A stretch of DNA of 64,000 nt from Phycisphaerales bacterium UBA2421 (lineage in GTDB: Bacteria > Planctomycetota > Phycisphaerae > Tepidisphaerales > Tepidisphaeraceae). How positions within the stretch are numbered: the first letter of the stretch is position 1; each line of letters begins with the position of its first letter. The notes under the pieces were generated by a model that saw only the letters and a program-made list of their open reading frames with translations, did no database searches and was not told where the DNA came from. Of this stretch, positions 2,449 through 34,556 are shown piece after piece. The position numbers and the translations under genes are program-made. The stretch is from contig DDRH01000010.1 in NCBI GenBank assembly GCA_002343075.1, forward strand, positions 31,086 through 95,085, written 5' to 3'.

Positions 2449-4671
2449 ATGGCGAAACGAACCGGGAACAACTCCAAACCGAAACAGGCACCCCCACGCA
2501 GGCGTGAAGGAGCGACTTCTGTGGTCAGGCCCTCGAGGATGGCGCAGGCCGCCGGGCCGGCGACGGCGATCGCGCCACCACCGCCGACACTATTGCAGTC
2601 GCCGCATTTGCCGGGCGCGGTCTTACCGGTGGAGGCACCGCCGGCGATAGCGCCTGCGCCGCCGGTTCAGCTCATGGCCCCGGAATCCGCTGCGCCTGCA
2701 GTTGCCGAGAGAGGGAACGGCGGCGCCGCGCCTTCGGAAAATCGGGCCAGCACCCCCGGCGGCGTGTCGCCGTTCACCCGGTTTGGCCTCTCACGGTCGG
2801 CGCGCAATGTAAGCGAGCCAATCGTATATGAACCCCAGCCCGAGCCTGCGCATGTACCCATCCCGCCGTTGCTGTTTGAATGTGCTTGGGAAGTCTGCTG
2901 GCAGTTGGGTGGGATTTACACCGTGCTTCGAAGCAAGGCCTCTGCGATGACAGCCCGATGGGGCGATCGCTATTGCCTCATCGGCCCCTACAACCCCGCC
3001 ACCGCGGCGCTGGAGTTTGAAGAGCGGCCCAGCGAAGGCGTCGTGCGCGATGCGCTCGACCGCCTGCGCGCCCAAGGCATCAACTGCCACTATGGCAGGT
3101 GGCTGATTGCCGGGCGACCCCGGGTGATTCTTCTCGACCACCGCTCCCGTTACGACCGGCTGGGCGAAGACAAGTACCTGTTCTGGAAAGACCACGGAAT
3201 TACCGTGCCCGACGGCGACGGCGAGGTGAATGATGTTGTCGCATTTGGCTTCACCGTAACCGAGTTCTTCCGCGCGCTCAGCGAAGTAAAGGGCGAGCAG
3301 CCGGTTCTGGCGCATTTTCATGAGTGGATGGGCGGGGCAGCGGTGCCCCGGATCGCACACCTCGGCTTGCCGATCACGACGGTCTTTACCACGCATGCGA
3401 CGTTACTCGGCCGCTACCTGGCCAGCGACAATCCCCACTTTTACGAGCACCTGCCGTTTCTCGACGGCGACACGCTCGCCGATAAGTATCGCATTCTTCC
3501 AAGGCATCAGATCGAAAAAGCCGGGGCGCACGCTTCGACGGTTTTCACCACTGTTAGCGAAGTGACCAACGCCGAGGCGACGCAATTACTCGGACGCTCG
3601 GCAGACATCATTACGCCCAACGGGTTGAACCTTCAGCGGTTCCATGCGTTGCATGAGTTTCAGAACATGCACGCGCAGTACAAAGAGCGGATTCATCAGT
3701 TTGTGATGGGTCACTTTTTCCCGAGTTATACGTTTGACCTCGATCGCACGCTCTACCTTTTCACGTCAGGTCGATACGAATACAAAAACAAGGGGATGGA
3801 CCTCTTCATTGAGGCGCTGCATCGTCTCAACCAGAGGCTGAAGCACGTTTCTGATCCGCCGACGATTGTGGCGTTCATCGTTACGCGCGCGGCCAACCGA
3901 CATTTTAATGTCGAGGCGCTGCGCAGTCAGGCACAGTTTCGAGAGTTGAAGAATACTTGTATCGATCAGGAACGCGCCATGGGCCGGCGGCTGCTTCAAA
4001 GTGTCCTGACGGGCCGTCTGCCGGCGCTGAGCGACCTGATTACCCCTGATGCGTCGGTGAAGCTCAAGCGTGCCATGCACGCCTGGCGCAGCCCGCGGCA
4101 GCCTTTGATTGTCACGCATGACCTGGCCGACGACGCCGGCGATCCGGTGATTAACCATCTTCGCCATCGCAAGATGTTTAATGCCGCAGACGACCCGGTG
4201 AAGGTCGTGTTTCACCCGGAGTTTCTGAGTGCCACGAGTCCGCTTATCAGCCTCGACTACGACAGCTTCGTGCGTGGCTGTCATTTGGGAATATTCCCAA
4301 GTTATTACGAGCCATGGGGTTATACGCCCCTGGAAGCCAATGCGCTCGGTGTCCCGGCGGTGACGACGGACCTCAGCGGGTTCGGGGCGTACGTCCAGCG
4401 GCATATCGATCGGCACGACGACAACGGCATCGTCGTCCTCAACCGTCGCCAGCGCGGGTTTGAGGAGACCTGCAATAACCTTGTCGATTACCTCATGCAG
4501 TTCTGCAGCCTCAATCGCCGGCAGCGCATCGAAATGCGCAACCGCGTCGAGCGGCTGAGCGATCTGTTCGACTGGGATCGCCTCATCAGCCATTACCACG
4601 ACGCGCACGACATGGCCCTCGAGCGCACGCTCGGCAAACGCCCGGGAAAGCTGGAAGTGAAGCTCATTTAG
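2449..4671 (+). CDS. Glycogen synthase, GT3 (eukaryote-type) family
   Basis: A 740-residue glycosyltransferase resembling the GT3 glycogen synthases of fungi and animals rather than bacterial GlgA (GT5). Expected role: cytoplasmic transfer of glucose from a sugar nucleotide (UDP-glucose in eukaryotes) to glycogen. Seen: FECAWEVCWQLGGIYTVL (143-160), LIGPYNP, HFHEWMGG (289-296), TVFTTHATLLGRYL, the long ITPNGLNLQRFHA and GRYEYKNKGMDLFIEAL stretches, and GIFPSYYEPWGYTPLEA (about 613-630) with the conserved Glu of the nucleotide-sugar site. Residues 1-140 are a Pro/Ala-rich, probably disordered extension that the family lacks. ATG 2449 follows a weak AAGG. Its stop overlaps the convergent phosphatase stop (4668-4671). 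The family call is strong; donor and regulation are inferred. Confidence 0.88.
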   Translation: MAKRTGNNSKPKQAPPRRREGATSVVRPSRMAQAAGPATAIAPPPPTLLQSPHLPGAVLPVEAPPAIAPAPPVQLMAPESAAPAVAERGNGGAAPSENRASTPGGVSPFTRFGLSRSARNVSEPIVYEPQPEPAHVPIPPLLFECAWEVCWQLGGIYTVLRSKASAMTARWGDRYCLIGPYNPATAALEFEERPSEGVVRDALDRLRAQGINCHYGRWLIAGRPRVILLDHRSRYDRLGEDKYLFWKDHGITVPDGDGEVNDVVAFGFTVTEFFRALSEVKGEQPVLAHFHEWMGGAAVPRIAHLGLPITTVFTTHATLLGRYLASDNPHFYEHLPFLDGDTLADKYRILPRHQIEKAGAHASTVFTTVSEVTNAEATQLLGRSADIITPNGLNLQRFHALHEFQNMHAQYKERIHQFVMGHFFPSYTFDLDRTLYLFTSGRYEYKNKGMDLFIEALHRLNQRLKHVSDPPTIVAFIVTRAANRHFNVEALRSQAQFRELKNTCIDQERAMGRRLLQSVLTGRLPALSDLITPDASVKLKRAMHAWRSPRQPLIVTHDLADDAGDPVINHLRHRKMFNAADDPVKVVFHPEFLSATSPLISLDYDSFVRGCHLGIFPSYYEPWGYTPLEANALGVPAVTTDLSGFGAYVQRHIDRHDDNGIVVLNRRQRGFEETCNNLVDYLMQFCSLNRRQRIEMRNRVERLSDLFDWDRLISHYHDAHDMALERTLGKRPGKLEVKLI

Positions 4672-6497
4672 CGCCCGCGGCGCAGGCCCGCGGTGAGTAG
4701 CAGTGCGAGGGAGGCGATCGCCGAAGGTTCCGGCACGGTATAGCTGACTTCGAGCGTTGGTCGTGCCAGCTGCTGCGCTTCCGATGAGTTGAGCGCCCAG
4801 CCGTTTGTTGCGTTGTTGAGAATCACCCAGCCAAAATTCGTGTCGATCCCGTCGCGATGCGCTGCCAGCCAGGCGGCAATCGATGCGGTTACATCAAAAT
4901 CGGCCACCGCATTTCCCGTCGGCGAGGGGAAGACATACTCCGCAGCGGCGAGATAGTCGGCATCCGTGCCCGCCGCATTGAGGCTGAAACCAGTCCCGGA
5001 AACGTTTCCAGCGGTGTTCCATGTGGTCGTATCGTCGAAATCGGTCAGCAGTCGATGAATCGCCAGGCGGCCGGTCGTGCCGTCGCTGCTCTCGCTGCCC
5101 GTGAAAAACGACAGCTTGGCATTGACAATGGTCGCTTCGGCTGGAATTGAGCCTGCACCAAAAAGATCGTCAAACCTGATTGCCAACTGAACAGGGGCGG
5201 CGTTTGGAAATGTGTTGTCCGGATCTTCATCGGCATCAGCGTTCAGGAGAATCGCGGCGCCAAAGGTCTGGTCAGGTGTCGCGGCCTGCAGTTGCGTGTC
5301 AGTGGTGCCGGCGTAGCCGTTCAAACCCTGCTGAAATGAACGCACCGTGATGGGCAGGCTTGGCGCAATCGCAGCGGTGACGGCGAGGCGGGGCACGTCG
5401 GTGTTGTCAATCAGCCCGCGGAAATGCCCGGCGTTCGGCCCGGACGCATAAGTCGGCACCCACGTTGCGTTATGCCGGGTATCGCCCGACTGAGTTCCCG
5501 GCCACATCCCTGCTCCGTTGTTCTGCCCGGCCGTGATACCGCCTGTTTCGTGGTCGGACGTGACAATGATCAGCGTGTCGGGATTGGTTGCCGCAAAGTC
5601 GATCGCCCGCTGCACCGCGCGGCTAAGTTCGCGCACCTCGAAGATGCTGCGCTCGATTTTCTGCGAGCCGGCGACCGGCAGATGGCCCGCTGCGTCTGTC
5701 AGATCTGACTCGACCATCAGGAAAAACCCGTTCGGATTCGCGCTCAGTTGGTCGATTGCTTTATCGGTCATCTCGTGGAGAAACGGATTCGTATCGTAGT
5801 AACTGGTACTGCCGACAGAATAATCGTATGCGAACGCCATCTCACCCGACCCAAACAGCGCCGCGGCATGTGTGCTGGCGGGGGAGAACGCCTGCATTTG
5901 CTGCCGATCGGTTGCCACGGCGTAGCCAAACTGCGAAAAGGTCGCGGTGCCAACGCCTGTTGTGCGCCCGCCGAAGATAACATTCGGGCGCACCTGCGTG
6001 AGCATGTCGCTCAGAATGCCGTTGGTAAATCCGCGCGTCGGCACATGCGCCGCAAATGCCGCGGGGGTTGCATCGGTCACAAAACTGTTTGTAACAACGC
6101 CAGTCGAGCAGCCAGACAGCTTAAACTGTTCGAGGATTGTCGGAAGATCGCGGCCGTCGCTCGGTGTCGCGCTGCGAGGGTCGGGCCCGGAGGCGAGCGC
6201 GACGCTTACAACGTCGTTATTGACCTTGAAACCCGTTGCCAGTGCCGTTCCGCTGGCGGCGGAGTCGGTGACGTCGCCATTGCTGGCGTTATGTTCCATC
6301 CATGCAAAATGGTCGAGTTGTTCAAAACTAAACTGGCCGACGGCACCATTAAAGTAGTATCCGGCCGCCTTGATATGCTCGTGGCCCATGCCGTCGCCGA
6401 CAAACATAATAACATTCTTGGGCGGACCAGCGATTGCCAGGCTCGGGATGGCGAAGACGCTGACAGCAAGAAACGATCGGATCGGGGCGAATCGCAT
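4668..6497 (-). CDS. PEP-CTERM alkaline phosphatase with C-terminal DNRLRE-like domain
   Basis: A 609-residue secreted alkaline phosphatase (PhoA superfamily) that should hydrolyse phosphate monoesters outside the cytoplasm. Seen: signal peptide ending near SLAIAG; metal site GDGMG (Asp35); catalytic Ser79 in VTDSAASGTALATG; further metal-ligand motifs ESDLTDAAGH and VTSDHETGG. The phosphatase core ends near residue 380. A second beta-rich domain (about 385-585) resembles the DNRLRE/disaggregatase-type sandwich and may bind polysaccharide. The C-terminus is VPEP, a hydrophobic stretch and RRGR, a PEP-CTERM sorting signal. The 3' end overlaps the glycogen synthase gene tail-to-tail by 4 nt. 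The fusion of phosphatase, adhesion-like domain and sorting tag suggests retention in the exopolysaccharide or envelope. Confidence 0.9.
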   Translation of the reverse strand: MRFAPIRSFLAVSVFAIPSLAIAGPPKNVIMFVGDGMGHEHIKAAGYYFNGAVGQFSFEQLDHFAWMEHNASNGDVTDSAASGTALATGFKVNNDVVSVALASGPDPRSATPSDGRDLPTILEQFKLSGCSTGVVTNSFVTDATPAAFAAHVPTRGFTNGILSDMLTQVRPNVIFGGRTTGVGTATFSQFGYAVATDRQQMQAFSPASTHAAALFGSGEMAFAYDYSVGSTSYYDTNPFLHEMTDKAIDQLSANPNGFFLMVESDLTDAAGHLPVAGSQKIERSIFEVRELSRAVQRAIDFAATNPDTLIIVTSDHETGGITAGQNNGAGMWPGTQSGDTRHNATWVPTYASGPNAGHFRGLIDNTDVPRLAVTAAIAPSLPITVRSFQQGLNGYAGTTDTQLQAATPDQTFGAAILLNADADEDPDNTFPNAAPVQLAIRFDDLFGAGSIPAEATIVNAKLSFFTGSESSDGTTGRLAIHRLLTDFDDTTTWNTAGNVSGTGFSLNAAGTDADYLAAAEYVFPSPTGNAVADFDVTASIAAWLAAHRDGIDTNFGWVILNNATNGWALNSSEAQQLARPTLEVSYTVPEPSAIASLALLLTAGLRRGR

Positions 6498-24756: not shown

Positions 24757-24879
24757 CGAATGCTGGTGCAAGCCGGCTGAATGCGGGGTCGTGTTCGAAT
24801 GGGCATAGGCGCAGTACCGAGTGCTGAGGTAAAGCAAGAAGTGAGATTTCAGAGGCGAAAACGAACCCGCGAATGTCTT

Positions 24880-25999: not shown

Positions 26000-28900
26000 A
26001 TGCCGATTTCACTTGAGTACATGTCCTGGCTGCAGGCGGTTGGCCTGTTTGCTCTGCTGGCTACGCCGGTGGTGTTGCTTGGCATTCGGTCGCTTGTGGG
26101 CTTGGGGCCGGTGCGCAGGTGGGTTGCGGTCGGTACGCGGCTGGCGGTGCTGCTGCTGATGGTGCTGATTCTGGCTGGTGCGCGTTGGCAGAAGATCAAT
26201 CGGACAGTCGAAGTCATGGTGCTTCGCGATGTGAGCGACAGCACACTCAATGTCACCAGCTTTCCGGGTGATTCCCTGCAAAAGTCTATCGAGGACTTCT
26301 TGCGGTCGGCGGCCGATTCAAAACTGAAGCGGCCGGATGACCGCATCGGGGTGATCAGTTTTCATAGCCAGTCGCTGATCGACGCCATACCCAACACATG
26401 GCTCGCCCTCGATGCGCGGCCGATCCGCGACCCCGGGAATGGCACCGATCTCGCCAGCGCCATTCAACTGGGCCTAGCCACGCTCGGCAAGGATAGCATG
26501 CACCGGATGGTGCTAATGTGGGATGGAAACTCGAACACCGGCGATATTGAGCAGGCGGTGGCGGCGGCGACGAGCGCAGGGGTGCCCATCGACGTGATGC
26601 CGCTGAAGTACGATGTGGCCAGTGAGGTATTGCTGGACACATTCAACGCGCCCACTTGGAAACGTGAAAATGAGCCTTTTACCATGCAGGTGATTCTACG
26701 TTCGACCAACCTCGGCCCGGTAACCGGCAAGCTGACGGTGCTGCATCAGGGTGTGCCGATGGACCTCGATCCGGAGACACCGGGCGTGCAGTCGGGCCGC
26801 ATTGTCACGCTTCAGAACGGACTGAACCGTGAGCCGGTGCGAGTACCCGGCTTGCAGAGCGCAGGCGTGCATCAATTTAAGGCTTCATTTGAGGCACCCA
26901 ATGTGAGCGCAACCGTCGCCGGTGCGGGGGGGCTGCCGGCTGGCAATGTGGGTGGTTCTCCGCCGCAGGGGGACACACTCACCCAGAACAACGTCGGCAG
27001 CGCATTTACCTTCGTCCGCGGGAAGGGGAAGGTGCTTTACATCGATAACGTCCCCAACGGCGCTGGCCAGACGCTCCGCAGCGCGCTCATCGATGAGGGC
27101 ATTAACATTGAGGCCGGGCGCACGACGGTTGACCAGTTTCCGAATGATATTGTTGAGCTACAGAATTACGACGCCGTGATCCTGGCCAATGTACCCCGTG
27201 GCAGTGGGGGGCTGAGCGAGGATCAGCAGAAAATGCTGGCAAGCTATGTCCACGATATGGGCGGCGGGCTGGTGATGGTAGGGGGAGACGAATCGTTCGG
27301 TGCCGGCGGGTGGCAGGGATCGCGCCTTGAAGAAGTCCTGCCCGTCAGTATGGATGTGCCGGCGCAACGGCAGATTCCCAAAGGGGCGCTGGTGCTGGTG
27401 ATGCACTCTTGCGAAATGCCAAACGGCAACTATTGGGGCGAGCAATGTGCCATCAAGGCAACCGAAACGCTCAGCAGCCGCGATGAAGTGGGTGTCTTAA
27501 GCTATGCATGGCAAGGCCCCGGCGGCGGGGGAAGCCAGTGGGATTTTCCCTTGCAGCAGAAGGGCGATGGCAGCAAAGTCATCGCCGCGATCAAGAAAAT
27601 GCAGCTAGGCGACATGCCCAGCTTCGACGACATGCTGAATGTCGCCATCAACGGCCGAGATGGCAATCCGGGGTTGAAGCAATCCGATGCGCGTCAGAAA
27701 CATATCATCGTCATCAGCGATGGTGATCCGCAGGCGCCGCGCCAAGATCTGATTGACGATTGCATCAAGAACAAGATCAGTATCACGACTATCACGGTCT
27801 TTCCCCACATGGGCGACCCGGATGGTCTCCCGCCGACCATGAAATCCATGGCTCAGCAAACCAAGGGCCGATTTTATGGCCCGATTAACCAGAATCCTGG
27901 CCAGTTACCGCAAATCTTTATCAAAGAGGCCACGGTTGTGCGCCGCAGCCTGATCCACGAGGAGAAAGAGGGTATTCCGCTTAAACTCTCCGATGCAGGA
28001 AGTGAGCTTATCAAGGGGTTGCCGTCATTCGACCCCATCTTCGGGCTGGTGTTGACGACGCGAAAGCCCAACCCGCAGATTGAAGTGCCCCTGGTCGCGG
28101 GGAAGAACAATGATCCCCTCCTGGCCTACTGGCAAAGCGGGCTGGGGCGCACGGCGGTGTTTACGAGCGACGCGCACAGTCGGTGGTTGGCGAACTGGAC
28201 TGGCAGCGCGATGTATAACAAGTTCTGGAGTCAGGTCGTGCGATCGGTTGCGCGCCCGCCGATGAGCAGCGACTTTGAGGTGAATACGGTGCCAATCGGT
28301 GGCAACAAGGGGCGCATCACGGTGGAGGCGTTGGGGAAAGACAATGCGTTCCTCAATTTCTTATCGATTAATGCGAATGTCGTCAGCCCCAACCCAAACG
28401 CCCCGCCGATGCAAGTTCGGCTGACGCAAACGGGGCCGGGGACATATGCAGGTGAGTTTGACGCCGCCGACCCGGGAAATTACGTCGCAGTGCTGAACTA
28501 TCGGGGCGCCCGGGAAGGAAGTGGGGGCATGCTACTCAGCGGGATGGTGGTCAACACCTCACCGGAACTGCGCGACCTCAAGAGTAATGAAGCGGCGATA
28601 GAGAGAATCCGCGCCGCAACCGGCGGGAGAATGCTAGCGCCGTTTGACGCCGCCAACGCTAACTTCTTTGCCAGAGAGGGTTTACGGCCAAGCATTTCGC
28701 CACAGCCGATATGGGATCGATTACTCCTTGTCTTGCTCGCGCTCATTCTCCTCGACGTCGCGGTGCGAAGAATCGCCTGGGATTGGCTGGCGACGAAGAA
28801 TCTTGCGTACAGGGGCGCGGGTTGGATCCGGTCTTTCACCGCCGCGAGGAACATCGAATCGCGGCAGACGCTGGATGCCCTGCAACGCATCAAGCTTGAG

Positions 28901-29191
28901 CAGATGAGTAAGTCTACAACGGCTACCGACGCTTCCGTGGGAAACAGAACGGCCGTCGCGAGCGAACCCTTGCCCGACCGCAGCCGAAAATTCGAGGCCC
29001 CCGCAGGCGTCGAAGGCGATATAACCAGCGTCGTCGGAGGGGCAACAAACAAGGCAATCCCGTCACCGCCAAGCCCGAAACAGCCCCCCAAAGGAGCACC
29101 GCAACCGGGCGATGGCATGACCGGGCTTCTGGCAGCGAAGAAGCGCGCGCGGGAGCAGATGGAAAATCGGGAGGGCGAAAAAAATGGCTAG
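26000..29191 (+). CDS. Large membrane protein with vWA and glutamine-amidotransferase-like domains
   Basis: A 1063-residue protein, first gene of the MoxR-type operon. Seen: two N-terminal membrane helices (about 9-31 and 43-62); a vWA domain starting VMVLRDVSDST (MIDAS D-x-S-x-S) to about 215; a central domain with GKVLYIDNVPNGAGQTLRSALIDEGI and GGGLVMVGGDESFGAGGW, the fold of class-I GATase-like proteins without an evident catalytic Cys triad; a second vWA-like region with a degenerate MIDAS (MHSCEM) and HIIVISDGDPQ; a beta domain; one helix near residue 905; and a Pro/Lys-rich cytoplasmic tail. Family members occur in BatA/aerotolerance-type clusters. It overlaps the following gene by 8 nt. 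Ligand unknown. Confidence 0.82.
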   Translation: MPISLEYMSWLQAVGLFALLATPVVLLGIRSLVGLGPVRRWVAVGTRLAVLLLMVLILAGARWQKINRTVEVMVLRDVSDSTLNVTSFPGDSLQKSIEDFLRSAADSKLKRPDDRIGVISFHSQSLIDAIPNTWLALDARPIRDPGNGTDLASAIQLGLATLGKDSMHRMVLMWDGNSNTGDIEQAVAAATSAGVPIDVMPLKYDVASEVLLDTFNAPTWKRENEPFTMQVILRSTNLGPVTGKLTVLHQGVPMDLDPETPGVQSGRIVTLQNGLNREPVRVPGLQSAGVHQFKASFEAPNVSATVAGAGGLPAGNVGGSPPQGDTLTQNNVGSAFTFVRGKGKVLYIDNVPNGAGQTLRSALIDEGINIEAGRTTVDQFPNDIVELQNYDAVILANVPRGSGGLSEDQQKMLASYVHDMGGGLVMVGGDESFGAGGWQGSRLEEVLPVSMDVPAQRQIPKGALVLVMHSCEMPNGNYWGEQCAIKATETLSSRDEVGVLSYAWQGPGGGGSQWDFPLQQKGDGSKVIAAIKKMQLGDMPSFDDMLNVAINGRDGNPGLKQSDARQKHIIVISDGDPQAPRQDLIDDCIKNKISITTITVFPHMGDPDGLPPTMKSMAQQTKGRFYGPINQNPGQLPQIFIKEATVVRRSLIHEEKEGIPLKLSDAGSELIKGLPSFDPIFGLVLTTRKPNPQIEVPLVAGKNNDPLLAYWQSGLGRTAVFTSDAHSRWLANWTGSAMYNKFWSQVVRSVARPPMSSDFEVNTVPIGGNKGRITVEALGKDNAFLNFLSINANVVSPNPNAPPMQVRLTQTGPGTYAGEFDAADPGNYVAVLNYRGAREGSGGMLLSGMVVNTSPELRDLKSNEAAIERIRAATGGRMLAPFDAANANFFAREGLRPSISPQPIWDRLLLVLLALILLDVAVRRIAWDWLATKNLAYRGAGWIRSFTAARNIESRQTLDALQRIKLEQMSKSTTATDASVGNRTAVASEPLPDRSRKFEAPAGVEGDITSVVGGATNKAIPSPPSPKQPPKGAPQPGDGMTGLLAAKKRAREQMENREGEKNG

Positions 29192-29432
29192 CGACGCGGG
29201 TTTCATGCCGCTGCGATTTAACAATCCGGTAAAGTTGCGGCGGCAGATGAGTCAGCGCGGTTGGACTGAGGTGCAGATACTTGAGGCGATGCAAACCAAA
29301 CCGATTTCGGTCCCCGGAAAACTTGGGCCGGCGTTGCGCTATGTGCATCCCGTGACCGGGAAGTCGGTGGTTGTTGATGCAATGACTGGCGAGATTTTTC
29401 ACGTTGGTGGCGAGGGTTTCAGATATGGTTGA
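29184..29432 (+). CDS. Colicin-E5-like ribonuclease domain protein (putative toxin)
   Basis: An 82-residue basic protein. From residue 23 on it follows the pattern of the colicin E5 catalytic domain: RGWTEVQILEAMQTK, a variable loop, then ALRYVHPVTGKSVVVD, TGEIFHVGGEGF. Colicin E5 RNase cuts tRNAs with a queuosine anticodon (Tyr, His, Asn, Asp). No secretion or receptor domain is present, so this would act inside the producing cell or be part of a TA-like pair. ATG 29184 overlaps the upstream stop by 8 nt and its own stop overlaps the next ATG by 8 nt. Homology is by pattern only; active residues were not verified. Confidence 0.65.
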   Translation: MASDAGFMPLRFNNPVKLRRQMSQRGWTEVQILEAMQTKPISVPGKLGPALRYVHPVTGKSVVVDAMTGEIFHVGGEGFRYG

Positions 29433-29664
29433 ACAAATCTTCATAAAACTTCTGAATGAAGGTGTCGACGTTTGGCGACCGGTACCGGGATATCGCGTTG
29501 ATTCCAACACATACATTGTGCTGCGATCAGAGCATTATGATCCTGAGGCTGAGACCTGGGAGTTTCCGCCGGGTTCGGTGGTCGTTTGTGAGAACCACGC
29601 CTCCTCGGATGGCGAGATTTTTGCAGCGGTGCGTCACCGTGAACTTGACAAGCGAACTGCGTGA
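29425..29664 (+). CDS. Small acidic protein, probable partner/antitoxin of the E5-like RNase
   Basis: A 79-residue acidic protein beginning MVEQIFIKLLNEGVDVWRPV, with a central YIVLR strand and WEFPPGSVVVCE. I recall this LLNEG.DVWRPV...WEF.PGSVV pattern from small uncharacterised bacterial proteins; no function is established. Its ATG overlaps the RNase gene stop (ATGGTTGA), implying coupled translation at matched levels, and its acidity would suit neutralising a basic RNase. Antitoxin or immunity role is inference from position and charge. The GTG at 29661 overlaps its stop, but MoxR more likely starts at 29691. Confidence 0.55.
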   Translation: MVEQIFIKLLNEGVDVWRPVPGYRVDSNTYIVLRSEHYDPEAETWEFPPGSVVVCENHASSDGEIFAAVRHRELDKRTA

Positions 29665-29690: not shown

Positions 29691-30704
29691 ATGAGTCAGC
29701 AGAATATAGAAGCCGCGACTGAGTCGTTTCGACGGGATTATCGCGCAGTGCACGCGGAAATCTCAAAGGCGATTGTGGGCCACCAGGCAATCATTGACGG
29801 CGTGCTTACCTGCCTGTTTGTCGGCGGGCATGCACTGCTTGAGGGCGTGCCGGGGTTGGGTAAGACGGCGCTCATTCGCTCGCTTTCGGAAGCGTTGCAC
29901 CTGAAGTTCAGCCGCATTCAGTTCACACCCGATCTGATGCCCGCTGACGTCATTGGCACCAATATTATGCAGACTGACGACAGCGGACGGCGCGCGTTTC
30001 AGTTTCAGCACGGGCCGATTTTTGCGCAGATTGTCCTCGCGGATGAAATCAATCGTGCCACCCCGAAGACGCAAAGCGCGCTGCTCGAAGCAATGCAGGA
30101 AAAGCAGGTGACTGCCGGTGGGGAGGTGCGCAAGCTGGAGGCGCCGTTTTTTGTAATGGCGACACAGAATCCGCTAGAACAGGAGGGGACCTATCCCTTA
30201 CCGGAAGCACAGCTTGACCGTTTCTTCTTCAAACTGGTAGTCAACTACAGCAGCCGAGATGAGCTGCATGAAATTCTTGCCCGAACCACCGCAGGCAAGG
30301 TGCCGAAGGTCGAGCCGGTGCTGGATGCATCAAAGATCATCGAGTATCAGAAACTGGTGCAGCGGGTGATCATTGCGCCCCATGTGCAGGATTTTGCCAT
30401 CCGTTGCACGCTGGCAACGCATCCGCAGGGTCCGTATGCCATTCCGATGGTCAACCAGTTCATCCGCGTCGGCGCGTCACCGCGTGCGGCTCAGGCAATC
30501 GTCCTCGCGGCAAAGGTGAAGGCGCTTCTTGACGGCCGTTATCACGCAGCGTTCGACGACATCAAAGCTGTCGCCATCCCGGCCATGCGACACCGGATAA
30601 TTATGAATTTTGAAGGTGAAGCCGAAGGAATGACCACCGACATGGTGCTGGAAAAAGTCATCAACGAAACGCCAACCGCGGCGGAGGTGGCGGGGGCGCG
30701 ATGA
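29691..30704 (+). CDS. MoxR-family AAA+ ATPase
   Basis: A 337-residue AAA+ ATPase thought to act as a chaperone with vWA proteins. Seen: Walker A GVPGLGKT (52-59), Walker B IVLADEIN (114-121) followed by RATPKTQSALLEAMQE, sensor ATQNPLEQEGTYPLPEAQLDRF, and the C-terminal lid domain with SPRAAQAIVLAAKVKALLDGR. The ATG at 29691 has AAGGGA 7 nt upstream; a GTG at 29661 overlapping the previous stop would add 10 residues. It sits between the E5-like pair and the run of small ORFs, with DUF58 and BatA-like genes downstream, the standard MoxR-vWA association. Confidence 0.95.
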   Translation: MSQQNIEAATESFRRDYRAVHAEISKAIVGHQAIIDGVLTCLFVGGHALLEGVPGLGKTALIRSLSEALHLKFSRIQFTPDLMPADVIGTNIMQTDDSGRRAFQFQHGPIFAQIVLADEINRATPKTQSALLEAMQEKQVTAGGEVRKLEAPFFVMATQNPLEQEGTYPLPEAQLDRFFFKLVVNYSSRDELHEILARTTAGKVPKVEPVLDASKIIEYQKLVQRVIIAPHVQDFAIRCTLATHPQGPYAIPMVNQFIRVGASPRAAQAIVLAAKVKALLDGRYHAAFDDIKAVAIPAMRHRIIMNFEGEAEGMTTDMVLEKVINETPTAAEVAGAR

Positions 30705-30775: not shown

Positions 30776-30857
30776 TCAACCTGGATATCTGGGCGATTTG
30801 GCAGCGACGGTCAATATCAATGATGTTGCAAAGCCACTTTCACACGGGAGTATAGGT

Positions 30858-31085
30858 ATGCCGAACGAGATAACATTCGTCGTCACTGAAGACGACGTAG
30901 ACGGCGGCTTCACCGCCCATGCACGGGTAAAAGATGGCAACCGCGATATCTTCAGCGAAGGTGACGAGCGCGAATCGCTTATCAAGAACGTCCGCGAAGC
31001 TATTGATGCCGCATTCGACGCAGGCGAGCGAAAGCCGGAGTTGATTCACCTCCACTTTGTCCGTGACGAGGTGGCGGCAGGATGA
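30858..31085 (+). CDS. HicB-like small protein
   Basis: A 75-residue protein starting MPNEITFVVTEDDVDGGFTAHAR and ending IHLHFVRDEVAAG. This is the HicB-like partial RNase-H fold seen in many small proteins that end in LHFVRDE; those often pair with a HicA toxin but also occur alone. No HicA-type frame adjoins it here. ATG 30858 has GGAG 7 nt upstream. Its stop overlaps the next ATG (ATGA, 31082-31085). It may be an orphan antitoxin or a regulator recruited to this operon. Confidence 0.65.
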   Translation: MPNEITFVVTEDDVDGGFTAHARVKDGNRDIFSEGDERESLIKNVREAIDAAFDAGERKPELIHLHFVRDEVAAG

Positions 31086-31387: not shown

Positions 31388-31612
31388 ATGGCCCTATACA
31401 AAGTCCCTCCCAACACCGGCAAAGTGCGCGTCGCCATGTTTCATGGCGGCGCGTATGCAGTCTGGAATGGCAAGCAGGGTGCGAATGAGTTTCGAATTCT
31501 CGTGCGCACCAAGCGGCAGGCGGAGGCGATTGCCCGGGCGATCAACGAAAAGCGTCATAATGGCGAGATTGATACCGCCGGCTGGTCGGCTTTTGAGGAG
31601 ACCCCACAGTGA
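31388..31612 (+). CDS. Small hypothetical protein (74 aa)
   Basis: A 74-residue basic soluble protein, ALYKVPPNTGKVRVAMFHGG at its start, then FRILVRTKRQAEAIARAINEKRH. The last helix resembles short nucleic-acid-binding or regulatory proteins but no family is identified. Its stop overlaps the DUF58 GTG start (GTGA at 31609-31612), so it is translationally coupled to DUF58. Confidence 0.6.
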   Translation: MALYKVPPNTGKVRVAMFHGGAYAVWNGKQGANEFRILVRTKRQAEAIARAINEKRHNGEIDTAGWSAFEETPQ

Positions 31613-32535
31613 TCGCCGCACCCGCAAAATCGGCTCGCACGCAACTGCTCGACTCGCAGTTCATGGCCCGTCTTGATCAACTCGATCTACTCTCGCGCAA
31701 ACTGCTCGCCGGCAAGATGAAGGGTGAGCGGCGCAGCAAGCGGCGGGGACAGTCGGTCGAGTTTGCAGACTTCCGTAACTATGTAATTGGCGATGACTTA
31801 CGTTTCATCGACTGGAACATCTATGCTCGGCTCGACAAGCTGTTCCTCAAGCTGTTTTTGGAAGAGGAAGACCTGTCACTTTATGTGTTGATCGACACCA
31901 GCTTGAGTATGGATTGGCCCCGAAGTGGAGCAAGGCCTGCCGATTTTAACAAGCTGCACTACGCCCGTAAGCTCGCGGCGGCGCTCGGATACATCGGATT
32001 GGTGAACTACAACCGGGTGAACGTCGTAGCGCTCAGTGACACCGTCGTTGCCGAGACCGGAGGCATGCGCGGACGTCGGCGGGTGGCGCAAATGCTCGAT
32101 TTCGTCAGCGGGCTGCAGCCGCAGGGGGCGAGTCATTTCGCAGCCGCGTGCAAGCGGTTTGCGCTGGCCAATCGTCAGAAGGGCGTGTGCGTGGTGATCA
32201 GTGATTTCTACGACAAGAGTGGTTTTGAGACCGGCCTTCGCTATCTCGCCAGCGGTAAGTATGACCTTTTCGCCGTTCAAGTCCTTTCCCCTGCCGAGAT
32301 CGAGCCTGAACTGCAGGGCGACCTTAAGCTGAAAGATATTGAAGATGCCGACCTCGCTGAAGTGAGCATCACGCAGCCTCTGATAAAAAAGTATAAAGCC
32401 AACCTGAATGCGTACTGCCTTTCGCTGAAAGAGTACGTCACTCGCCGCGGGGGAACGTATCTGTTCACGAACTCAAACGTGCCATTCGAGACGGTCGTCC
32501 TGAACTACCTACGCGAGAGGAGGCTTCTGGGATGA
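31609..32535 (+). CDS. DUF58 protein (vWA-like, MoxR partner)
   Basis: A 308-residue soluble protein. The DUF58 signature is clear: SVEFADFRNYVIGDDLRFIDWNIYARLDKLFLKLF followed by LYVLIDTSLSMDW, a vWA MIDAS (D-T-S-L-S). DUF58 proteins are the usual substrates or partners of MoxR ATPases. It starts with GTG overlapping the 74-aa gene and ends overlapping the BatA-like ATG at 32532 (ATGA). The residue string above is broken by the family's normal loops in other members. Function in envelope or metallo-complex assembly is assumed from the family. Confidence 0.92.
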   Translation: MIAAPAKSARTQLLDSQFMARLDQLDLLSRKLLAGKMKGERRSKRRGQSVEFADFRNYVIGDDLRFIDWNIYARLDKLFLKLFLEEEDLSLYVLIDTSLSMDWPRSGARPADFNKLHYARKLAAALGYIGLVNYNRVNVVALSDTVVAETGGMRGRRRVAQMLDFVSGLQPQGASHFAAACKRFALANRQKGVCVVISDFYDKSGFETGLRYLASGKYDLFAVQVLSPAEIEPELQGDLKLKDIEDADLAEVSITQPLIKKYKANLNAYCLSLKEYVTRRGGTYLFTNSNVPFETVVLNYLRERRLLG

Positions 32536-34556
32536 GCTGGTTTCCCTCGTTCCTCAACCCCCTTACCGCCGCCTTCGCCGCCGCGGTGGTGGTTCCTTCA
32601 CTGCTCCTGCTCTACTTTCTCAAGCTCCGTCGAAAAGAAATGGAGTTTGCATCGACGATTCTCTGGAAGAAGAGTATTCAGGATCTACAGGTGAACGCGC
32701 CGTTTCAGAAGCTGCGGCAGAATCTGCTCTTGATTCTGCAGATGCTCCTGCTGCTGCTGTTGCTGCTGGCGCTGTCCCGGCCGATTTCCCACTACACGCC
32801 GGGTGCAGGCAAGAGCAGCGTGATTCTGATCGATCGCTCTGCATCCATGTCCGCAAAAGAGCCAGGCGGGGGCTCCCGGCTGGACTCTGCCAAACGGCAG
32901 GCGAAAGATCTTGTGGATTCGATGGACCGAAACGGTTATTCGATGGTGATCGCCTTTGATGACGATGCAAAGGTGGTCCAGGGTTTCACCTCCGACCGCG
33001 CCGCTCTGAAGCGGGCGATTGACTCAGTCGGCCCGAGCGATCGCAAGACCAATCTGAAGCTGGCGTATCAACTGGCCGAGGCGCAGGTCGCGTTCATCCC
33101 CGAACAAAATCGCACCAATATAGACCCGCCGGCGGTCTGGCTTTACAGCGACGGGCGTGTCGCCGATTCGACGGGGCTTTCGATTAAGTCGCCGGTCACG
33201 CTCGTGCAGGTGGGCAGTGAAGATGTGAAGAATATCGGCATCGTGGCGCTGAGCGCAAAGCGCAATTACGACCGCCCGGCAGAGGTGCAGATCTTTGCAA
33301 GGCTGGCCAATTTTGGGGCTGAGCCTGTAAAGGCCCAGGTTCAGTTAAGCATTTCGCCGATGAACCCTGACAACCCGGAAACAGATGCGTTTGTGGTAAG
33401 TCGAGTGGCGGAGGTGTCTCTGCCGCCGGAGCGGTGGACGGATGACGATCGCAGAACCGCGGAGCAATCGACTGGCTTTCTGGTGCGCGATGGGGTGGAG
33501 TTCAACCTCGACCTCACGACGGCAGCGGTGATTCGGGTTGAGCAGATGAACCGCGAAGGCGACGCGCTGGCAGCCGACGATGCCGCGATGGTTGTTGTCC
33601 CCCCACCGAAGGCGCTATCGCTACTGCTGGTCACCGACGGCAACTACTACCTGGAGCGGGCTGTTGACAGCCTAAACCTGCAGAAGCCGCAGCAGATGAC
33701 GCCCGCCGACTTCGATCAGAATCTGCACGGCGATTTTGATGTGATCATCTTTGATCGCCACTCCCCAAAGAAGCTGCCCGAAAGTGGTAACTTCGTCTAC
33801 TTCGGCGGCGTGCCCGGTGGCATCAAGGTGACGATGGAAGAGAAAGATGGTGCTCCAGTTCCGATTGAGGAGCAGACCGTTCTTGATTGGCGAAGAGATC
33901 ATCCGATCTTGAAGCACCTTAACCTTGGCAAGGTCTATGCGGGGCTTGCCCTGAAACTGAATGTGCCGGCAGAGTCGCAGACTCTTGTCGATGGCGTTAA
34001 GGGGCCGATAGTCGTATTGCACCGCGAAGCGCGTTCAACTCATCTGATCATTGGATTTGACCTGATGCAGAGCAATTGGCCACTTCGAGTGAGTTTTCCG
34101 ATCTTTCTGCAGCAGTCACTACAGTTTCTGGCACTCGGCGGCGACTTAAGTGTTCGCGAGAGCTTTGTGCCTGGTGCTTCGCCGCTGCTTCCTCGCTCGA
34201 ATCTTGCGAGAGCTCAGGCGGGAGAAATCAGGGAAATTGCACTCGTCGGTCCGAATGGTGCAACCAAGGTCGCCGTCCCTGAAGAGGGTGATTTTGCGCT
34301 GCCGCCGTTGGAACGGGTGGGGGTTTACCGAACGGTGCCACTGGTGCCGCAATACGAGCGGCTTGCGGTCAATCTGCTCGATGCGAGTGAGAGCAACCTG
34401 TTGCCGGTCAAAACCGTGCCCGGCGGCAGCGGAGAGACCATCACCGCTGAGGGCCGCAAGACTCGGCTCGAACTGTGGTGGTGGATCATAGCGTGTATCG
34501 GCCTGCCACTGTTAATGATTGAATGGTGGGTGTACACGCGGCGGGTACACCTGTAG
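32532..34556 (+). CDS. BatA-like vWA membrane protein
   Basis: A 674-residue membrane protein. Seen: N-terminal BatA-type region with FLNPLTAAFAAAVVVPSLLLLYFLKLRRK and a second helix (LLLILQMLLLLLLLLALSRP), then a vWA domain with MIDAS VILIDRSASMS, a long extracytoplasmic beta-rich part (about 250-640) and a final helix near the C-terminus. It corresponds to the BatA/BatB-like proteins of MoxR operons, in which vWA domains are thought to bind metal ions or partner proteins. It is the last gene of the operon; a promoter for the next transporter follows. Confidence 0.88.
   Translation: MSWFPSFLNPLTAAFAAAVVVPSLLLLYFLKLRRKEMEFASTILWKKSIQDLQVNAPFQKLRQNLLLILQMLLLLLLLLALSRPISHYTPGAGKSSVILIDRSASMSAKEPGGGSRLDSAKRQAKDLVDSMDRNGYSMVIAFDDDAKVVQGFTSDRAALKRAIDSVGPSDRKTNLKLAYQLAEAQVAFIPEQNRTNIDPPAVWLYSDGRVADSTGLSIKSPVTLVQVGSEDVKNIGIVALSAKRNYDRPAEVQIFARLANFGAEPVKAQVQLSISPMNPDNPETDAFVVSRVAEVSLPPERWTDDDRRTAEQSTGFLVRDGVEFNLDLTTAAVIRVEQMNREGDALAADDAAMVVVPPPKALSLLLVTDGNYYLERAVDSLNLQKPQQMTPADFDQNLHGDFDVIIFDRHSPKKLPESGNFVYFGGVPGGIKVTMEEKDGAPVPIEEQTVLDWRRDHPILKHLNLGKVYAGLALKLNVPAESQTLVDGVKGPIVVLHREARSTHLIIGFDLMQSNWPLRVSFPIFLQQSLQFLALGGDLSVRESFVPGASPLLPRSNLARAQAGEIREIALVGPNGATKVAVPEEGDFALPPLERVGVYRTVPLVPQYERLAVNLLDASESNLLPVKTVPGGSGETITAEGRKTRLELWWWIIACIGLPLLMIEWWVYTRRVHL

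Follow-up and report, generated by a model that had tools for sequence, protein, structure and literature searches.

Colicin E5 cuts tRNA-Tyr, tRNA-His, tRNA-Asn and tRNA-Asp between G34 and U35. tRNases of this type are found among colicins, pyocins and CdiA toxins (PMC9990079), and E5 domains carried by RHS and further delivery proteins have been listed together with ImmE5, as has Imm22 beside toxins of the ColD/E5 fold (PMC3482391). Orphan Rhs toxin/immunity pairs of Salmonella behave as type II toxin-antitoxin (TA) modules, with stress leading to degradation of the immunity proteins (PMC7043789). Conflict systems built of MoxR, vWA proteins and effectors have also been described, with the P-loop GXXXTAKS being frequent in beta-propeller MoxR systems (PMC7159879). 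We analysed a stretch of 64,000 nucleotides (nt) of Phycisphaerales bacterium UBA2421 (contig DDRH01000010.1, positions 31,086 to 95,085, forward strand; hereafter the window), taken from a 4.47-Mb assembly of 67 contigs that is 91% complete. In this window a small E5-type RNase and an acidic partner are encoded inside a MoxR/vWA operon, and the two probably constitute a toxin/immunity cassette that stems from an Rhs polymorphic toxin and is now a two-gene TA-like intracellular module without a delivery part.

The features of the pair, in window coordinates and with lengths in amino acids (aa), are as follows (ORF, open reading frame; pI, isoelectric point):

29184..29432, + strand, stand-alone colicin-E5-family RNase, 82 aa, pI 10.0 (ORF, profile and sequence comparison)
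29425..29664, + strand, acidic partner, 79 aa, pI 4.9, predicted all-beta, candidate immunity protein/antitoxin (ORF, family profile, model)
29184..29191, + strand, overlap of 8 nt between vWA stop and toxin start, ATGGCTAG (DNA)
29425..29432, + strand, overlap of 8 nt between toxin stop and partner start, ATGGTTGA (DNA)

A preliminary description of this DNA had placed an E5-family RNase and an acidic neutraliser candidate inside a MoxR/vWA operon, a location that ORFs and Pfam matches confirmed. It had also regarded all these genes as joined by 8-nt overlaps, which is correct for vWA/E5 and E5/partner; moxR most likely begins at ATG 29691, 26 nt downstream and free of any overlap. A Shine-Dalgarno-like GGGAGGG lies shortly before the toxin start.

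Against PF12106 the 82-aa protein scored 23.6 bits, the curated cut-off being 25, and 43 of 46 aligned homologues matched this family at E<=0.01. The tips of the related loci L013, L014, L017 and L021 exceeded the cut-off, that of L020 stayed below it (22.9), and the E5 domain of L022 gave no PF12106 match at 1e-3. Homology to the solved colicin E5 was found with the profile (E=4e-7) as well as with the single sequence (E=0.0062), and the colicin E5 fold was detected. K17 and R25 align with Lys25 and Arg33, which serve as catalytic residues of colicin E5 (PMC6277466), and V74 aligns with Ile94. All 74 aligned rows have R25; at the K17 position ten rows are gapped and 63 of the other 64 have the lysine. 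An equivalent of Lys60 is absent, the loop being shorter, and the nearest column carries K in just 5 of 74 rows. By family membership only, the protein would be expected to cleave tRNA anticodon loops. The small E5 relatives also have an N-terminal motif of their own, of L-R/K-F type (50 of 69), and the genome of the window holds one clear E5 copy.

The partner matched nothing in Pfam-A or NCBIfam, and none of 31 relatives matched Pfam at E<=0.1. Its model is a small all-beta protein (pLDDT, the predicted local distance difference test, 86.2) for which no clear fold relative was found; ImmE5 was not among its four PDB sequence matches up to E 10, and no fold match was reported. At the DNA level, each of the 14 distinct E5 loci analysed (the window, L012-L018, L019-L022, L062 and L063) has a partner-family gene immediately after the E5 domain, as found with the family profile; these loci include four where the E5 domain is incomplete: L016 and L018 are without its middle, L062 gives a partial match and L063 a fragment. 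In the class survey E5 was present in 5 and the partner in 8 of 248 genomes, all five E5 genomes among the latter; partners without E5 occur in L029, L030 and L031, the last cut by the contig end. The charges are opposed, with pI values of 9.0-10.5 for 13 toxins vs 4.3-6.5 for their partners. Moreover, in L030 (1405-2142) a partner-family domain is joined to another domain, putatively also for immunity, which shares 55% identity over 89 residues with L019 3629-3931, a small gene located just upstream of the L019 E5 gene. The fusion resembles the polyimmunity proteins of polymorphic toxins (PMC3482391).

Because of this fusion domain and of the Rhs-tip loci that carry the partner, there is strong circumstantial evidence that the partner is an immunity protein. 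Toxin and partner distances do correlate (r 0.78, 13 pairs, 0/20000 permutations; pairs outside the operon, n=8, r 0.79, 3/20000 permutations); we set this aside as proof of interaction, because linked genes correlate anyway. Both molecular assignments of the preliminary description thus gained ground: the RNase as a member of the E5 family, both family and fold having been detected, and the acidic neighbour as its candidate neutraliser, through the 14 loci, Rhs proteins included, and the fusion with a putative immunity domain.

The origin of the pair is indicated by loci in which the same domain ends a large protein. In L013 (Roseibium, 1540 aa) and L014 (Bdellovibrionaceae, 1287 aa) E5 is the C-terminal tip with the partner next to it, and both proteins carry RHS_repeat or YD-shell Pfam matches. 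L015 begins inside such an Rhs-type protein, its first ~40 residues matching an annotated plasmid RHS core protein. E5 also ends frames of 744 and about 303 aa in L017 and L021; these resemble the Rhs core by eye, but Pfam gave no RHS match for them. L022 has a long frame as well, which Pfam did not match and which could have arisen by chance upstream of the E5 domain. Small E5 ORFs of 89 and 86 aa are found in L019 and L020. An ORF at L020 8229-9425, transposase-like by eye only, directly adjoins the orphan E5/partner pair in G496.

In the tree of 74 E5 domains, the 66 small proteins grouped as a single clade (97/69, recovered in 96% of 200 bootstrap trees), and its sister was the Roseibium Rhs tip (98/85). 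The alignment (A3) had 82 columns, and P0067-P0069 of the 69 matches were left out; small E5 proteins were collected with a length-filtered search, many from contigs <2 kb. Since sampling was length-filtered, many contigs were short and the alignment had so few columns, the placement of the small stand-alone forms as one clade beside the Rhs tip is suggestive. In the window the 82-aa ORF stands alone without a delivery protein of its own, and its genome gave no RHS_repeat match.

How the module might work can be outlined as follows. The Rhs-derived cassette would have lost its delivery part and would now act inside the cell as a small TA-like module. RNase and partner would be translated from the vWA-moxR message through coupled re-initiation, and the partner would bind and block the RNase, as ImmE5 does with colicin E5. 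Under stress, or once the partner was lost, the RNase would be set free, anticodon loops would be cut, and translation would be slowed or stopped. The MoxR operon would offer steady expression and a stable home, MoxR and vWA themselves standing outside the mechanism. At the gene level the layout is that of a type II TA module, with two small overlapping genes for a putative toxin and a protein antitoxin.

Compared with colicin E5 and ImmE5, the pair shares the sequence family, the fold, the Lys25/Arg33 equivalents and a small adjacent neutraliser candidate; it differs in having no receptor or translocation domains, in the shorter loop and in residing in a chromosomal operon, and its neutraliser family has no detected match to ImmE5. 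With the Rhs proteins of L013 and L014 the E5 subfamily, the partner family and the gene order are all shared, the difference being that the window E5 is not the end of a long protein. RelBE and YoeB-YefM differ in the toxin, which is E5 and not RelE by sequence in the window, and in the partner, in which no DNA-binding domain was recognised. The toxin gene comes first, a departure from the usual RelBE gene order. The orphan rhs pairs of Salmonella are similar in joining a toxin tip and an immunity gene without a delivery part, yet they lie beside a full-length rhs gene (PMC7043789), whereas the window pair sits within a MoxR operon of a genome that gave no RHS_repeat match. The MoxR-vWA ternary systems likewise place an effector-like gene with MoxR and vWA genes (PMC7159879), whereas the window has a DUF58/BatA operon and the pair occurs without MoxR elsewhere. 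Pfam named no third core component of these systems (VMAP, iSTAND, FtsH or a beta-propeller on the vWA protein) in the operon genes scanned, but the window MoxR does pass the bpMoxR cut-off, and a separate gene at 24781 encodes an NHL-repeat protein.

The operon position is shared by L012, from a metagenome-assembled genome of Humisphaera, another genus than that of the window, which has vWA, E5, partner and moxR in the same order, with overlaps of 4 nt (ATGA) between vWA and E5 and of 8 nt between E5 and partner. L012 is apparently the same genome as G460, and its moxR (3861-4906) is read in two frames (138 + 209 aa), perhaps by an assembly error. Several close vWA proteins bear the names Tepidisphaeraceae or Phycisphaerales and, like the Humisphaera genome, point to the Planctomycetota. 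Across the family survey the vWA gene was present in 24 of 26 genomes and E5 in 2. A moxR gene followed vWA within the flank at 19 of 28 vWA loci, and at these 19 junctions the pair was found in two, a GxxExxY-type PD-(D/E)XK gene in three and a relative of the small gene S3 in one. The three genes of the second kind, all PDDEXK_3 (PF13366) and located at the vWA/moxR junction, are:

L037, 4732-5106
L046, 1011-1427
L050, 4556-5083

The junction therefore repeatedly houses small extra genes.

In four further cases the longest contig of a small E5 protein equals a contig with the vWA gene in length and source (6745, 8510, 205004 and 5319 bases), and for the 6745-base contig the partner matches too. 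The comparison covered 18 small-E5 contigs of 3.2 kb or longer, with P0001, the window's own sequence, excluded, and the 120 vWA matches listed of 812; the four coincidences stand against 0.11 expected from a jitter control, and 0/20000 trials reached four. These matches are indirect: they show linkage, neither gene order nor distance, and the 14 misses say little.

The vWA tree comprised 21 rows (17 of the 24 vWA-bearing genomes plus four metagenome proteins; partial, interrupted and second copies excluded; G418 flagged as a long branch). Its six pair-bearing rows need four changes, at least three by well supported branches, which implies repeated gain or loss of the pair; the pair label was not significantly clustered (68/500 shuffles as low).

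A possible control of the pair by MoxR/vWA, which the preliminary description had favoured, has to be weighed against this distribution. In its explicit form the toxin/antitoxin complex would be a client of MoxR-vWA, and a membrane or phage signal would lead to the antitoxin being stripped and the tRNase released. The toxin gene does overlap vWA, in an order recurring in a second genus, the shared contigs far exceed expectation, MoxR-vWA conflict systems with effectors have precedent, and the window MoxR passes the cut-off of PF20030 (bpMoxR) with 58.9 bits. However, AAA_3 scores far higher (212 bits) and the P-loop is GVPGLGKT, not GXXXTAKS. No moxR relative was found in the flanks of 12 of the 14 pair loci (flanks of about 0.25-8 kb, some cut by contig ends), 22 of the 24 vWA-bearing family genomes had no E5 found (some genomes being incomplete), and other small genes take the same junction. 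Given the patchy E5 and these other genes, a passenger is no worse a fit than a controlled effector, and we regard the client model as unlikely. Control by MoxR/vWA was not supported. Neither of the outcomes that the preliminary description had named as refuting was obtained: the E5 family and fold were detected, and the pair recurs at this position in another genus.

Quite improbable in our judgement is a more elaborate version, by which the Rhs tRNase/immunity cassette was recruited as resident effector of GATase-vWA/MoxR in soil-type planctomycetes of the window's family: the chaperone pair would sense envelope or phage stress, remodel the immunity protein and free the anticodon nuclease, the module being repeatedly lost or replaced at the junction.

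We give little credit to the idea of a domesticated RNase, in which the pair would have a regulatory role, trimming tRNA or RNA of its own operon, and the toxin side would have lost its lethality. It would agree with the similar degree of conservation of E5 and its host gene (58-71% vs 54-74% identity among six paired rows) and with the correlation of E5 and vWA distances in these rows (r 0.68, 20/720 permutations as high), a moderate value that fits vertical descent in part; a BECR RNase in flagellar operons has been mentioned as a possible regulator (PMC3482391). Nevertheless, the neutraliser candidate is kept beside the RNase in both operon copies read at the DNA level, where a harmless enzyme would need none, and presence is patchy. 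That the pair is a decayed remnant of an Rhs locus, left behind by recombination and being lost, is very improbable: tips broken in the ways given above do exist in the family, but the two genes in the window are undamaged, have Shine-Dalgarno-like sites and keep the catalytic residues, the small relatives carry a motif of their own, and the genome of the window has no RHS_repeat match.

For the Rhs-derived TA-like module, the toxin family and the principle are known, the home is unusual and the immunity family is apparently undescribed; for the stand-alone E5 pair in a MoxR operon we found no description in the open-licence literature. Overall, the observation of the preliminary description was confirmed in part and its interpretation supported in part, namely for the RNase and neutraliser candidate in the operon and not for MoxR/vWA control. 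The locus would exemplify how the tip of an interbacterial weapon can become a stand-alone module inside the cell, and Rhs-borne relatives are available for comparison; it also points to an apparently undescribed family of immunity proteins for E5-type tRNases. Furthermore, the recurring operon home makes a possible link between a chaperone system and tRNA-cutting toxins directly testable.

The host operon comprises the following genes around the pair:

26000..29191, + strand, GATase1-like and vWA protein, 1063 aa, host operon (ORF list, Pfam)
29691..30704, + strand, MoxR AAA+ ATPase (ATG start preferred; GTG 29661 possible)
31609..32535, + strand, DUF58 protein, host operon (Pfam)
32532..34556, + strand, BatA/vWA protein, host operon (Pfam)

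Two more small ORFs, 30798-31085 and 31388-31612, separate moxR from the DUF58 gene; neither has a significant Pfam match. A HicB-like resemblance of the first (S1) found no support in Pfam or NCBIfam. Relatives of the two ORFs are present in L012 at 37.5% and 60% identity, respectively. For 31388-31612 a further relative separates vWA from moxR in L035, and in L044 and L045 one follows moxR.
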